Part shown: positions 8,812 through 16,412 of the stretch, one piece after another
How positions within the stretch are numbered: position 1 is the first letter of the stretch
How the letters are laid out: each line of letters begins with the position of its first letter
From: Siphonodentalium dalli
Lineage: Eukaryota > Mollusca > Scaphopoda > Gadilida > Siphonodentaliidae
Direction of reading: 5' to 3'
Length of the DNA stretch: 64,000 nt
Assembly (NCBI GenBank): GCA_032622095.1
Contig: CP136061.1
Location: 36,769,797 to 36,833,796 of the forward strand
The notes under the pieces: model-generated
The model's input: the letters and a program-made list of their open reading frames with translations, nothing else
Told to the model about the DNA's origin: nothing
Database searches by the model: none
Translations under genes and position numbers: made by a program

Positions 8812-9792
8812 TTCTCTGAATAGTCAGCTTATACAGCAACACGGGCTCTTATTGCGCGGACGCACAACTATTTTTTCCGAATTCTCAGTTATTGTCCAAA
8901 TAATGCGTAGTTGTCGTCCTACGAATTCGTAGTCATTGTTTCGCTCTGGACAATTGGACCGATGAAGTAAAGGCGACAACTGTGTTTTAAGTCGGATAAT
9001 TAGATGTAAAATTTGTGTAAATTTTACTTCGTGCAGGAATATATACAATACTAGCAGGGTTACCCGGCGTTGCTCAGGTTAAATTGCGGTTATGCCCTCT
9101 GCTGTATATGGACATGCATGTGGTGGGAATAGAGAAATGGCCTATTACTCACCTGTCCATGGTGTTGTATTGGTCAGTTATTCTCAGTTTAAAATTAAAG
9201 TTGCTATATATATTAGCTACATGTAACCGACACAGAGCGAGGTTTTAAGTTGTTTATGTTAGGCTATGAGTCTGTTCTAAAACTGAAAGAAACTATCTGT
9301 ATCGGTGATATACCGTTGTCTGTTTCCAGTATTGGAGGATCCTGAAAAGTCAAGTCTACTGAAACCACTACTGTGAATGGGTCTTCACTCTTCGACGCAT
9401 TTCCATCTCTCTTGACAAATTGTATCTATCTTGCGGAAAATATTTTGAATGCGACGGACTTAATTGTGTTACAATACATTACACAGTCTAACATGCCATC
9501 CTCTAACGATTCAAGGTCCCTACTGTTGCAAGAATATATGTATCTCTTAAATATAATGATAAGTTTACTTAAAATGTTTTCTTCTATGTATCTGTTTTGC
9601 GAACTCACTGTATGGATGTCCAGATTCCCATACAAATGACAGTTGAGAATATGTAATTTTTCAATTGACTTAATTATGTCGAGGCTGTGAAATGTGAACC
9701 CAAAAACTTATAAAACGAATTATATGGAGATGACTTTATACAACTTTTGTTGATATTGGCGACTAAAACATTCTCATCAATGTTACATGTAT
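8812..9792. other. Unassigned stretch between satellite and composite transposon
   Basis: No repeat family or gene was recognised. Open frames on both strands at 9373-9639 are likely chance. Confidence 0.3.
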
Positions 9793-11642
9793 TAGTGTAG
9801 TGACTTAGCGACAAAATTTTGACATATTGGAACAGACTGGCCAAAAGTGCCATTTTTTTAATATTATGTCAAGTTAGGTGTGCTCTTTCAGAAAGAGAAC
9901 TAGAAACAGGTTTCTGATCAATATTAACCCTTGTTTCCAGTATAAATCCAAGATGGTGGCCAAATTCAATCATTATTTCACCATGGCGTTCCAACTGGTA
10001 CACAATTTAAGGCACATGCATAATAAAGGCGTCATTCCATCCGGCATTGTCATATTTTGAAGATATTAGCAATCCAGGCTGACCAAATTTGAAAATTATA
10101 ACTTTTTGGACCAAAAGCATGAATTTTGTCATAAAATCATTCTCGTTTCAATTATTTCGGAATAATAAACAGACAATTTATCAAACCTGTTTCAGCCCAG
10201 ATCAAAGGTTAAGATCTTAAAAATTTCAGAAATGTATACTGCAAACAAAATATACAACATCTAGAACAAATTCGTAGCCATATTTTAGACATTATGGATT
10301 ATGTTACCCCTTACCCCAAAAATCATGAAATTTTGTTTTTGTGATAAACATCCGATAGAACATGGATGAGAATCTATAAAGGACACTATTCGATCACATT
10401 TCTAAATACTGTAATTGCAATTACACACACAATGACCAAAGTTGAAATTTACAACTTTTTCGACTAAAATATGCAATTTGGTAAGAAAATCCTCGTCATT
10501 TCAAATATTTTGGTCCATTAAATGGTCATTTACACATAGGATATTTGCGATAGTTCAAATGTTTGGTCTTAAATGTTTTGGACATATATACTAAAAACAA
10601 TGAATACATTTTCTGTGGTTAATATGTAACAACGTTTCAGAAAATTTGGTTTATGTTACCCCTCACCCCAAAAATCACAAAAATGTGACTTGGGTTGTAA
10701 AGATTCAATAAATCTTTGGTTAAATCTTATAAAGTGAGTTTGTCGATGACAATTAGTCATATATTGTTATGTAACAATCTCATTGATAGTATACTGTTTA
10801 AATTTACAATTGTATGCCTAATAACAGCTATATTTTATGGTAAAATAACCATCATTTCAAATATTTTCAACCAATATATGGGCAATTTCTCAAACATTTC
10901 CCAAGATCGTATACCACATGCGGCCATGAAAGTTTCGAAAATGACTGTCGAATACAACACATTTAAATGTGTATACATGTCATGTCTATGTGAAATAGAA
11001 TAAAATTCTTAAAATCTATTATACCATAAATAATTTGAAGGTGTTGACTTATATAATCTACAAATGTAGCATACAAGAGGGTGTATATATAGACATGTAG
11101 TTCAGATCACAACTTTAATTTGTCTATCAATAATACACATAACATAAAGATGGTAAATCTGTGTTTACATTGTATACTGTGTTCTTAAATTCACGTCTGT
11201 TATGTTGTACGTGTATAACTATAATGTGCACAGTCTGATCATACCAGCGGATATATAGCAACTCATAGATTGTCATGTTATAATCACCGGTGAGTAACAC
11301 ATACATGTATCAGTCATTTAATTATTAAGGGAATAAGACCGTCCCAGTAAGTCAGACACAAAGCCAGGCCATTGTAAAGGACAATGAGATAATCAACACT
11401 CTAATTGTTAATTAGAGTCATAAACATAATTAGCCTTTGTGGCCACCAGCTTACTGGTGACACAATGCATCCACTAGACACTGCTAATTGGGGGATTAGT
11501 GAGGCAGCTATTTGTCCCCACATTGTCATTCAGTTGCAAATTAGAAGGGACAAGACACAATGCATATACCAATACCACCATATGACTGAAGTAATATGTC
11601 AATGGAATTAAACAATACTAATACATAGAAATGGAAACTTAC

Positions 11643-11768
11643 CTTCAAATGTGTCACAAAATTGGAGGTAACTTTTTTGGAACCGGAGATTGTAGTTGGG
11701 CAATGTTTGCACTTCGCTTTCATAGTACACGACGTGTCTTTCTGCAAATCAAAATGCTGCCAGATTGT
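11643..11768 (-). pseudogene. BED zinc-finger exon of the nested hAT element
   Basis: The minus strand encodes a near-perfect BED finger: IWQHF aromatic pair, then AKCKHC (C-x2-C), then TSNFVTHLK supplying the His. BED fingers bind DNA and sit at the N-terminus of hAT transposases and ZBED proteins. The frame ends HLK|GTAAGT, a consensus splice donor (intron from 11642 downward on the minus strand). No catalytic hAT exons or C-terminal dimerisation domain follow before the element ends. The finger itself has no stop, unlike the surrounding older remnants, so this insertion is younger. Confidence 0.7.
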
Positions 11769-12179
11769 TTTTGTAGTAATGTTGATAGCATTTTTAGCAG
11801 TGGTTGGTATGAATTTCTACCATAGCATATATACCATATCAGGTGGAGATAATGAAACATGATCATAAGAGTGATCTATTATAGTGCTCTATTGTCAATT
11901 ATTTGAAGTTGGTTTCTCATTGTATTTATCAAAACAAGCCTTCTACCTCAAACTGAAGGTTAACCACTGCTTAAGCAAACAAAGAGGTGTCAACAGAATT
12001 AACCATTGAGACACAGTGGATGAAAACTCAGTGTTGTGACAACATAGTGATAGCCAGTCACCAGTCATACACTTTGAAATTTGAAAAAAAAACATTTGAA
12101 GAAACGATTGGATGAATCATGAAAGAGAACTTTGAGAAGAAATAAGTACCTGTGATTTTGAAGTAATTGAAATTAGACC

Positions 12180-12330
12180 CAAATTACAATTACAATTACA
12201 TCATAACCAATTACAATTGCAATTACATGTAATTGAGAATAAACTCAATTACCAATTACATGCAATTACTTGAAAAAATGTAATTAATTACAGTCAATTA
12301 CAATTACAAATTACAATTACCCCATCCCTG
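12180..12330 (-). repeat. hAT subterminal AATTAC repeats
   Basis: About 150 bases of closely spaced AATTAC/GTAATT words next to the CAGGGATGGGG terminus. Similar subterminal clusters occur in many hAT elements and are likely transposase binding sites. Nothing else is visible here. Confidence 0.7.
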
Positions 12331-12337
12331 CCGGTGA

Positions 12338-13600
12338 CCATGTTGATACATTGAACAAATATTTTAAGCATTCTTTATATCACAATTACAACTGCATAAT
12401 TATGTGCATGGTAAATCAGCTATTGCACATTTGCACCTGTTACAAGTTTGGGATTTGCAACAACACTTGATGAGTTCTGAACACACAGCTGCAGCTTCTG
12501 GTAATGTAGTCCACAATGGTTTACATCCATGATCTTCAACTGTCCATTCCCAGTCATGCAGGCCATGTATTGGAATTGTTATGTCATGACAAGTGTACCA
12601 CAATCCTGCCTGGTATATGGCTCATTTCATATGCTGTATTAGGGCCCCTTTTGAGCGACAAGTTTTGGAGAATTCTCTTCATATGCCTCGTTATCAGCAA
12701 CTTTTGACAACCTTTATTATAATTAATGGTAATGAAGCGTTCGAGTTCTTTGAAAATATATGAGGACGAATCTAGTTGAATAAAAGGTTGATTCGCCTGT
12801 AGAAGAAATGTACATGTATCTGTGATAACGGGATAATATTTCCATCCTATCCAGAAACTTTTTCTGCCCTTTATTTGGAAGAACAAAGTGGTATCAAAAC
12901 CAGATATCGAATGAAAATTGGGTAGGGATAACAATTGTCATCGCCCAGAGCGGAAAATGTGCTGTTGACCGTTGTCATGGTACAATGTTTTAGTTTTGCC
13001 TGTTCCTAGAGAAACACATGTATCACCACCACTGTTAGCATCCGTAAACTTTGAAAACAGACCAATGACCATTACCAGGACATCTGTGTCAACAATCCGA
13101 ACACGGATGGTCGTCAGCCCACAAGAAAGCGCATGGATAATGTGCGGCGCAATTCTAATATCAGCTTACTCCTGACAACAGTTTCTCAAGATTTACTAGG
13201 AAGAATTTGCTATTTTGAGAGTTGACGAACATTCTGTCATGTTTAACACTTTATCATCATGTTCTGACGCAATACTTCTCAGGAATACAAAAAATTCAAG
13301 CTTATTGTCAGAATGACGGAGGAAGTCGTTCCATTTTTTTGGAATCTTAGTTTGGTCACCAACTTTTCGTCCAAGACCTATACCACAATTCTCATTAGTG
13401 CTGCCTTTTGTGCCGCCTTCAAAATACCTATCCCACACAACACACATTACATTAACACTTCTTAGTTTGTAGAGTAGAAACTTCATTGGTGACTGTGTAA
13501 TCATTAAAAGTACATGTAGATCCTATCGCAGGCACAATTATATGCACAAGAATGCCTCCATCAAATATCTTGCACATACTTCCAATATTTTATTTCTTGT
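12338..13600 (-). pseudogene. Left-copy remnant of an uncharacterised transposon protein (middle and C-terminus)
   Basis: The minus strand, read from 13600 down, contains in order: CKIFDGG-LV, TFNDY, VVWDRYFEGGTKGS, a KIPKKWNDFLRHSDNK block, an E*ADIRI-H--HALSCG block, VDTDVLV, a GTGK turn, HSISGFDTT, a KGRKSFW turn, a YQAGLWYTCH run, WEWTVEDHGCKPLWTTLP, and a Cys-rich tail CCCKSQTCNRCKC--A-LPCT-LC-CNC. From memory this order matches large unnamed proteins common in mollusc and cnidarian genomes (usual motif forms H-LTGCDTTS and EADTRI). Stops include TAA at 13166-13168, where the family has Glu, and another just before the HSISG block; at least two frameshifts are also present. It is dead here. 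The acidic EAD and VDTDV motifs suggest a PIN/FEN-like nuclease fold, which is inference. Confidence 0.72.
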
Positions 13601-13899
13601 AATAGTGTGTTCGAACAACATTTGGGCTGTTCAAAAAACCCGAAATCGCTTCTCCGCTATTCCAAACAGTCGAGTGCAGGAACAGGAGAACATCAAATTG
13701 AAAGGAAATGGAGGGTTGATAGGTTTAACAGAGAGCTCATCAACAATAACGAGATGGCTATAACTCCCCGAACCAGACGTGTTTTTCTCTCATGAGAGTC
13801 GGCTATTTCCCCCGCCTTATCAACGGGAGGTAAATTCAAGGGAACACAATCTGATTTGCTCAATGCTGGGATGTATCCGGGAAGCAATTGGAGATATAT

Positions 13900-14245
13900 C
13901 GGACCCACCTAAAAATGTTCAGTGCAAGATATTTGATGGAGGTGTTCTTGTGGATATGATTGTAACTGCGATATAGTATCTACTTTTAATGATTACGCCC
14001 AGTCACTAATGAAGTTTCTACTCTTCAGACTAAGAAGTATTACTGTCATATATATGTGGTGTGGGACTTATGAAACGAGCTGCCTACCAGGTAGGATTGT
14101 GGTACACTTGTCATGCCAAGCTGCAGCTGTGTGCTCATAACTCATTAAGTGTTGTTGCAAATCACAAACTTGTAACAGATGCAAATGTGCAAACGCTGAT
14201 TTACATTACACAGAGTTATGTAGATGTAATTGTGTGCTTAAAATA
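13900..14245 (+). pseudogene. Right-copy remnant of the same transposon protein (internally deleted)
   Basis: The + strand repeats the left-copy motifs: CKIFDGGVLVDMI (from ~13924), then in another frame STFNDYAQS and a KFLL-RLRS run. It then jumps at ~14058 directly to MKRAAYQVGLWYTCH and the Cys-rich tail KCCCKSQTCNRCKC, with an in-frame stop replacing the Glu of AAAVCSELI. About 790 bases of coding sequence present in the left copy are missing at the jump, and ~100 more before the Cys tail. It ends facing the right arm as the left copy faces the left arm. Not functional. Confidence 0.72.
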
Positions 14246-15720
14246 TTTGTTCAACGTATAAACACAGGCAGCGGTGATTATAACATGACAATCTATGAGT
14301 TGCTATCTATCGGCTGGTATTATCAGTCTGTGAACATAATAGTTATATAACATAACAATCATGAATTTAAGAACACAGTATAAACAAAGATAGGCCATCT
14401 TTATGTGTATTATTGATTGACAATTTAAAGTTGTGACCTGAAATGCATATCTATATATACACCCTTCTTGAATGCTAGATTACATAAGTCAATGATATTG
14501 GGTCAAATATATCCATTAATGGTATTATAGATTCTTTAATTTTATTTTATTTCACCAAAACATTACATGTATATACCCTTATATGTGTTGTATATATATT
14601 CGATGTTCATTTTCGAAACTTTTAAGACCGCATATTGTATATTATTGCATATTGCCATTCCATTGGTTGAACATATTTGAAATGATCAAATAAATTGTTA
14701 TTAGGCATACAATTGTTAATTTCAACAGTATACTGACAGTGAGATTGTTACATTATAATATATGACGAATTGCGATCGACAAACTCACTTTATAAGATTT
14801 AACCAACGATTTATTGAATCCTTACAACAAGTCACATTTTCGTGAATTTTGGGGTGAGGGGTAACATAAACCAATTTTTCTGAAACGTTGTTACATATTA
14901 AACACATACAATGTATTCATCGTGTTCAGTATATATGTCCAAAACATATAAGACCGAACATTTTGAACTATCGCAAATATCCTATGAGTAAATGACCATT
15001 CATTGGACCAAAATATTTGAAATGAAGAGGATTTTCATACAAAATTGCATATGTTTTGTCGAAAAAGATGTTATATTTCAACTTTGGTCATTGTGTATGT
15101 AATTGCCATTGCAGTATTTAGAAATGTGATCAAATAGTGTTCTTTATAGATTCTCATCCATGTTCTATCGGATGCTTATCACAAAACAATATTTCATGAT
15201 TTTTGGGGTGAGGGGTAACATAATCCAAAATTTCTAAAATACGGTTAAGAATTTGTCCTAGATATTGTATGTTTTGATTAGAATATACATGTCCAAAAAT
15301 GCTAAGACCTTAACCTTTGATCTACACTGAAACATTTTTGAGAAATTGTCTGTTTATTATTCCGAAATAATTGAAACGAGAATGATTATATGACAAAATT
15401 GCATGTTTTTGGTACAAAAAGTGATATATTTCCAATTTGGTCAGCCTGGGTTGCTACTATCTTCAAAATATGACAATGTCAGGTTGAATGACGCCTTTAT
15501 TATGCATGCGCCTCAAATTTTATACCAGTTGGAACGTCAGGGTGAAATAATGATTGAATTTTACCGCCATCTTGGATTTATACTGGAAACAAGGGTTAAT
15601 ATTGATCAGAAACCTGTTGCTAGTTCTCTTTCTGAAAGAGCACACCTAACTTGACAAAATATAAAAAAAATGGCACTTTTGGCCAGTCCGTTCCATAAAA
15701 AACGCTAAGTCACTACACTA

Positions 15721-16412
15721 TATAGCGTCCCTTCTTGGTGGAAATTAGTGCCAATCATATTTGTATCAGTTTTGGTGCTCACCCCTTCCACATTAATGAC
15801 TCGGACGGTGCCCCTTTTCCCATATCTAAACCATATCCATTAGATTCCTGATATCACGGAGTTGATTACGTATATGTGTGGTGGTAATCGGTAGCTAAAC
15901 AAATTCTTATAAAATTTAGTGCCTCTCCCATCTCTCACCCAAGCGACCCCCCATATAAGTCACACGATTAAATTCTGCGTTTCATGCAGGGGGAGGGGTC
16001 GGAAAAAAATTGCAACATATAGGGCCTAGATAATACGACTGCTTTGTTGCAGAAAATAAAGATCAGAAAACAACTAAACCTTCTAATTATTAAAACAACT
16101 ACGGCTTACTAGTATTACTGCATGTTTCTCATTCACCACACCAGAAAGCATCTAAATGCGGACCAACAATCTAATAATCGGATTAAATACACGACCGAGA
16201 TATCCCCGTCGCTCCATAGCTCCACTGACATGGCCAGTTAATACAATTTCCTAAAACTAACTCGCATCACGTGAAACCCGAAATGTGTTGTCCTGCCAGA
16301 TATCCCCATCGCTCCATTGGCACGGCCAGAACAACGAAGCAGTAAACACCCATACTATGGGCGTAATAGTGACTCTTGATTAAGAAAGAGCAACGTTCTG
16401 GTGGTCAATCGT
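15721..16412. other. Unassigned stretch
   Basis: Contains two related words (GATATCCCCGTCGCTCCAT near 16199 and GATATCCCCATCGCTCCAT near 16300) about 100 bases apart. Otherwise nothing was recognised. Confidence 0.3.

Follow-up and report, generated by a model that had tools for sequence, protein, structure and literature searches.

The window analysed here is a stretch of 64,000 nucleotides from the scaphopod Siphonodentalium dalli (GenBank assembly GCA_032622095.1, contig CP136061.1, positions 36,769,797 to 36,833,796), and it contains a near-palindromic 5.9-kb element whose ends are TAGTGTAGTGACTTAGCG and its reverse complement, with TAT on both sides (Table 1). The two halves of the element form long inverted arms, which in their seven longest ungapped pieces (I1–I7) are 84–93% complementary, and a minus-strand protein remnant occupies half of this large inverted repeat. 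In a gapped comparison a sister copy (L011) is 94–96% identical to the window in direct orientation and 81–84% identical to the opposite arm, so that the palindrome looks older than the copies.

Table 1. Positions, within the window, of the element and of the protein remnants that it carries.
Feature	Coordinates	Strand	Evidence
Whole non-autonomous element, near-palindromic, termini TAGTGTAGTGACTTAGCG ... CGCTAAGTCACTACACTA	9793..15720		Inverted arms, termini, flanks, sister copies
Target duplication TAT, left copy	9790..9792		Flanks
Target duplication TAT, right copy	15721..15723		Flanks
Later nested insert, 1,037 bp, BED zinc-finger ORF remnant, flanking direct repeat CCGGTGA	11294..12330		Absent from sister copies
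C-terminal WEW / Cys-rich tail remnant	12379..12654	-	tblastn, L139 residues 1416–1506
Predicted FEN1/EXO1-like nuclease domain remnant, with stops, frame changes and a stop at the E of EAD	12713..13507	-	tblastn, L139 residues 1128–1389
Remnant of the transposase-nuclease linker stretch, with the IFDGG strand	13488..13715	-	L139 residues 1053–1132
Remnant of the DDE-like domain's end, around the catalytic-glutamate motif	13623..13907	+	L139 residues 851–952
Second, inverted nuclease remnant, its start	13770..13961	+	L139 residues 1052–1118
Cys-rich tail of the second remnant (inverted, internally deleted)	14117..14233	+	L139 residues 1468–1505

The nested insert, whose BED zinc-finger ORF remnant was recognised at E = 2e-7, is missing from nine of ten sister loci, where the junction is uninterrupted (the tenth, L005, has no coverage there), and it is thus a later insertion. 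It shows a 7-bp direct repeat and looks like an insertion of hAT type, with an 8-bp duplication that carries one mismatch. Direct repeats with a spacing of about 350 bp are present in both arms of the element (10093–10892 and 14985–15421), and repeats of about 210 bp lie close to the left end of two relatives described below (L139 and L140); both sets may possibly be transposase-binding arrays.

When the minus strand is read from 13600 to 12379, all of the motifs listed in a preliminary description of this DNA are found in the order given there, namely IFDGG-LV, TFNDY, VVWDRYFEGG, KIPKKWNDFL, (E)AD-RI, VDTDVLV, GTGK, HSISGFDTT, WEWTVE and CCCKSQTCNRCKC. The sole exception is the E of EAD, as a stop at 13166–13168 replaces the Glu codon that opens the ExD motif (QE-stop-ADIRI in the window vs. 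QEEADIRI in L011). The motifs are spread over several frames with stops between them, and the longest open piece of the minus strand is 117 aa. A tblastn comparison with the protein of L139 matched 13715–12379 at E = 2.5e-63 with 33–47% identity, other family ORFs, out of 12 compared, matched the window at E values down to 2.6e-32, and the reversed window used as a control gave no match; the remnant is therefore not a chance resemblance. L139 is the best match among the proteins compared, a set made up of these 12 ORFs and L139. A second, shorter remnant runs in the opposite direction on the plus strand (13623–14233), and residues 851–952 of L139 match the plus strand at E = 4e-10. Since L139 matches the window with parts of residues 1053–1506 on the minus strand and with residues 851–952 on the plus strand, the element descends from an ancestor that had both halves of the protein.

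The family is abundant in the genome of the host. With a 108-aa remnant piece as query, at least 150 matches were scored among 860 candidates, the piece's own included, and a degenerate DNA pattern for HAxTG[CS]DT, which we take to be a motif of the family, matched the genome at 264 places and not once in the reversed control. Twenty-five of these places were translated, many of them broken, and four (L023–L026) were extended to 10 kb, one of which (L024) holds a single frame of 1,582 aa. A transposase piece from L041 gave at least 150 scored matches among 1,624 candidates and listed further long frames. The stop-to-stop lengths in eight of these loci, L133–L140, are 1534, 1533, 1422, 1533, 1510, 1510, 1507 and 1509 aa, respectively; the eight were chosen for frame length and so say nothing on the frequency of intact copies. 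The single open frames of the relatives thus span 1,422–1,582 aa, and seven of the eight frames in L133–L140 reach the Cys-rich tail, that of L135 ending before it. For the pair L020/L022 of one family the dN/dS ratio is 0.58 over 596 codons, which is mild constraint only; function is argued from the invariant acids described below. A broken copy, L025, has lost one of the nuclease acids.

The relatives are about 6–8 kb long, begin with TAGT and are flanked by 3-bp target duplications. One could suppose that the feature in the window began as a host gene which a transposon picked up and which has since decayed, unrelated to the transposon's own coding, as the window copy is both non-autonomous and broken. 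Against this, all four of the loci first extended (L023–L026) place the protein between inverted repeats, the long frames of L138, L139 and L140 lie within TAGT ends that are flanked by 3-bp duplications, and the perfect 18-bp inverted ends of L139 (TAGTGTAGGTAGTTAGCG) are nearly identical to the terminus of the window element. Capture of a host gene is thus extremely improbable, and we reject it because element-borne copies have long frames; the association of homologues with terminal repeats, which the preliminary description had proposed to check, holds in these relatives.

Just outside TAGT...ACTA, the flanking bases agree over exactly 3 bp in each of the 12 copies for which both ends were located (12/12), these being the window, L011, L023, L025, L026 and seven of ten copies fetched for the target-duplication test (the remaining three, in which one end was not recognisable, are omitted from the count). 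Mismatched pairings of left and right ends, used as a control, agree over 3 bp in 14 of 132 cases, and a 2-bp rule fits one of the 12 copies and a 4-bp rule none. All three of the further elements, L138, L139 and L140, show the same agreement, for a total of 15/15; the left end of L138 differs from its right end by 5 substitutions in 18 positions. In L133, L134 and L137 an ACTA end lies at the point where homology stops. One or both ends were not found in L009, L010 and L012, no convincing ends were found in L135 and L136, and in L024, the locus with the longest frame, we saw inverted arms but could find neither a TAGT end nor a target duplication. A loose TAGT scan of L134, L135 and L136 gave six candidates (4/16 mismatches), none with matching 3-bp flanks, and we take these for chance. 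The termini had been described as TA-flanked, which needs correction: the TA belongs to the TAGT terminus itself, and the 3-bp target duplication lies outside it. For the same reason a TA target duplication of the Tc1/mariner kind was rejected. EnSpm/CACTA elements begin with 5' CACTA and end with TAGTG 3', and an assignment to them was also rejected, as the window family has the reversed polarity (5' end TAGTG, 3' end CACTA).

For the C-terminal half of the protein we modelled residues 1036–1582 of L024, adding 24 full or partial sequences from the window and the genome as input, and obtained a mean pLDDT of 77.8, a pTM of 0.80 and 250 residues at 90 or above. The 13 Foldseek matches of this model at E ≤ 0.001 are XRN1, XRN2/Rat1 or Rad2 entries, and the best 50 rows of a second structural comparison are all FEN1-superfamily or XRN nucleases, T5 nuclease included. 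EXO1 stands at the top of the second comparison (Z = 14.7 over 265 residues at 3.7 Å, with rows at 14–16% identity), followed by FEN1 (13.8), XRN2 (13.0), XRN1 (12.8), XPG (12.6) and GEN1 (12.2). The model thus predicts, with good confidence, that this half folds like the EXO1/FEN1/XPG/XRN nucleases, in agreement with the PIN/FEN fold for which the preliminary description had suggested a structure prediction.

Seven acids, those expected of the metal-binding active site of such nucleases, are conserved. In a first alignment D109, D154, E257, D259, D282, D284 and D346 (model numbering) are 93–100% acid, compared to a median of 25% over 62 D/E columns; E34, E86 and E519 also reach 100%, but over only 4, 8 and 6 other rows, respectively. 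The same seven positions (D1144, D1189, E1292, D1294, D1317, D1319 and D1381 of L024) are invariant in 12 of 12 longer sequences, an alignment that includes three near-identical pairs and in which L023, L026, L036 and L135 are incomplete. When the D/E columns of L024 that have 8 or more letters are compared, a single acid is kept throughout only at these seven nuclease positions, at the three DDE positions given below and at D898, and in nine further columns the share of D or E is 88% or more. The EAD and DTD acids, for which likeness to PIN/FEN1-type nucleases had been guessed from the remnant, are within the seven. Their order (D, D, ExD, DxD, D) is common to the family and to FEN1/EXO1, and the spacing is similar, with 45, 103, 2, 23, 2 and 62 residues in the L024 model vs. 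52, 72, 2, 19, 2 and 52 in FEN1. Titles of PDB entries among the structural matches name D86, D181 and D233 of FEN1 and D173 and D225 of EXO1, and a locus of the host which we take to be EXO1-like (L045, the name being ours) shows EADSQ ... EDSD and GCDY in two frames, the same pattern as in the family.

Pfam scans of the family proteins listed no XPG or FEN match at E up to 0.5–1, a range in which HMMER filters discard most matches above E of about 0.1, and an NCBIfam scan and a PDB sequence search gave no FEN/XPG match either. A profile (A1) compared with the PDB found a marginal PIN-like match to YacP (E = 0.036), and another (A3) found antibody chains only, at E = 0.3 or worse. The relation to FEN1/XPG would accordingly be a remote one, and the assignment rests on the predicted fold together with the order and spacing of the acids. 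The family shares these features with FEN1, EXO1, XPG and GEN1; unlike them, its nuclease sits behind a transposase and ahead of a CXC-like tail.

The presence of XRN1 and XRN2 at the head of the Foldseek list, with Z values near that of FEN1, might instead suggest an XRN-like RNase whose substrates are not transposition intermediates and which shields the element from RNA silencing or processes the element's own transcript. EXO1 is the highest neighbour in the second comparison, however, and while fold alone cannot separate a DNA from an RNA substrate, the in-frame fusion of nuclease and transposase speaks for a shared DNA substrate over a role on RNA, which leaves the RNase an unlikely alternative to a nuclease that takes part in transposition.

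From N- to C-terminus the protein appears to consist of Cys/His modules, a DDE domain, the FEN1/EXO1/XPG-type nuclease domain and the Cys-rich tail. The N-terminal modules were seen by eye as two C-x2-C ... H-x3-C arrangements, and the tail, which we term CXC-like, has a weak Pfam TCR match in L026 (E = 0.046). The model of the transposase half (residues 380–1035) is weaker, with a pLDDT of 65 and a pTM of 0.60. Foldseek returned nothing for it at E ≤ 0.001, and in the second structural comparison no chain reached Z ≥ 8, the best value being 7.4, among rows that include the ISCth4 and Hermes transposases, retroviral integrases and the Prp8 RNase H as well as other proteins. The strand order of the model fits an RNase-H-like DDE domain that carries a helical insertion, as do the places of D477, D644 and E902, three acids that are invariant wherever letters are present (10/10, 11/11 and 11/11, respectively). 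The model thus points weakly to an RNase-H-like DDE domain.

Given that the nuclease half is confidently modelled and the DDE half has weak fold support, it could be argued that the nuclease is itself the mobility enzyme, with the N-terminal half merely a DNA-binding helper. This seems highly unlikely since the D-D-E triad is invariant and sits on the strands and the helix where an RNase-H-like transposase would carry it, since transposases and integrases are found among the structural neighbours of that half, even at their low Z, and since DDE strand transfer typically goes with inverted termini and a target duplication of fixed length, here 3 bp. The earlier suggestion that the mobility enzyme of this element may not be a DDE transposase is therefore not supported: the same protein has the invariant triad, and a remnant of the end of the DDE-like domain is found in the window.

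A link to a Pfam family of unknown function, DUF6589 (PF20231), also came from the transposase half. Two family members match the same stretch of its profile below the cut-off (L013, E = 0.0047; L023, E = 0.013), and a search of the genome with the DUF6589 model listed 98 matches. The one of these that was translated (L144) passes the cut-off at 33.4 bits, with 27 required, its frame continues into the nuclease, and it matches the family proteins at E values down to 3e-72 over the DDE end and the nuclease, so that DUF6589 and the transposase half of the family are related. No DUF6589 match is listed for eight of ten transposase pieces scanned, nor for any of four long frames (L139, L133, L136 and L138). 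DUF6589 is hereby linked to the context of a DDE transposon. Two other loci give near full-length DUF6589 matches (G000:C1:11615481-11616824, E = 7e-39; G000:C7:136589462-136590787, E = 6e-36). At 616 and 630 aa, their open frames are too short for the nuclease fusion unless there are introns, and the two loci possibly represent another lineage of the transposon group.

Taken as a whole, these data are best explained if the window element is a decayed and non-autonomous copy, duplicated in inverted orientation, of a DNA transposon of the cut-and-paste type whose intact relatives encode a DDE transposase fused in one frame to a FEN1/EXO1-type nuclease, with the protein layout given above, and we assign to this joint reading a probability of about 0.82. 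The Cys/His parts would bind the transposon ends and the DDE site would cut and join the 3' strands with a 3-bp stagger, while the fused nuclease would remove 5' flaps or cut the non-transferred 5' strand, leaving clean ends after excision or insertion with no need for the host FEN1. Trimming or cutting of 5' strands at excision or insertion is the most likely task for the nuclease. Another task can be considered as EXO1 is the top structural neighbour and the family is abundant in the genome: the nuclease might resect or trim the donor break in the manner of EXO1, steering repair to copying from the sister chromatid, by which the donor copy of the transposon would be restored. High copy number has many causes, however, and we regard donor-break resection as doubtful. 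Staying with 5'-strand processing, a more specific proposal that we put forward tentatively is that one chain holds two complete sites, the DDE site for the 3' strand and the seven-acid EXO1/FEN1-type site for the 5' strand, which would make the element independent of the host FEN1 and DUF6589 the DDE core of the group. The division of labour would then be that of TnsB and TnsA in Tn7, here with a flap nuclease as the second cutter.

Among known systems AcademX, a lineage of the Academ superfamily of DNA transposons, comes closest. Its nuclease is XPG-like, and the Academ superfamily has a Cys8 zinc finger, to be compared with the two C-x2-C ... H-x3-C modules of our family. The available text of a published description gives AcademX target duplications of 3 or 4 bp and an encoded nuclease where AcademH has a helicase (PMC10045372). 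Within that text, the likeness to our family lies in the length of the duplication (3 bp in all 15 copies with both ends), and in an encoded nuclease, here predicted from fold and invariant acids. The DDE class may be shared as well, the family having an invariant triad with a weak fold match (best Z of 7.4). On the strength of this description, rather than of a protein comparison, the family is probably AcademX or a close sister. What had been put forward as an undescribed system is therefore likely a transposon of a known kind, since the combination of DDE transposase and nuclease matches AcademX as far as its available description goes (PMC10045372). Accessory enzymes are also reported, in the accessible parts of the sources, for KolobokP (a His-Me finger nuclease), KolobokE, KolobokH and AcademH (a helicase) (PMC9587614, PMC10045372). 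As there described, Kolobok and AcademH resemble our family in pairing a DDE transposase with another enzyme that handles DNA ends or strands; unlike theirs, the second enzyme of our family is FEN1-like by prediction and within the same polypeptide.

Among the matches listed in a literature search we found no open paper describing an AcademX protein or DUF6589. A search outside the host genome, made with one motif pattern and hence no proof of absence elsewhere, returned 3 viral and 62 prokaryotic stretches, none of which (0/65) matched five family proteins by tblastn at E = 1e-4. The large family studied here, for whose nuclease half no Pfam model was found, can now be given a predicted structure and an assigned active site, together with copies that keep long frames and a clean signature at the target site. 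Retroviruses leave the flap step to the host FEN1, and whether a transposon brings its own flap nuclease for that step becomes a testable question.

Two minor observations concern repeats elsewhere. Family pieces in opposite orientations lie within about 3 kb of each other at L030 (G000:C1:147627830-147631030), with pattern matches at C1:147628827 on the minus and C1:147630962 on the plus strand, and at L031 (C1:151375160-151378360), with ORFs on both strands, so that inverted duplication may have hit other families as well. In the window, a repeat that measures about 500 bp, or less in some matches, and that by BLAST is 71–86% identical to a stretch beside L010 (8780–9281) is dispersed, with copies near 2680, 17404, 21157, 24584, 37323, 39349 and 59131.
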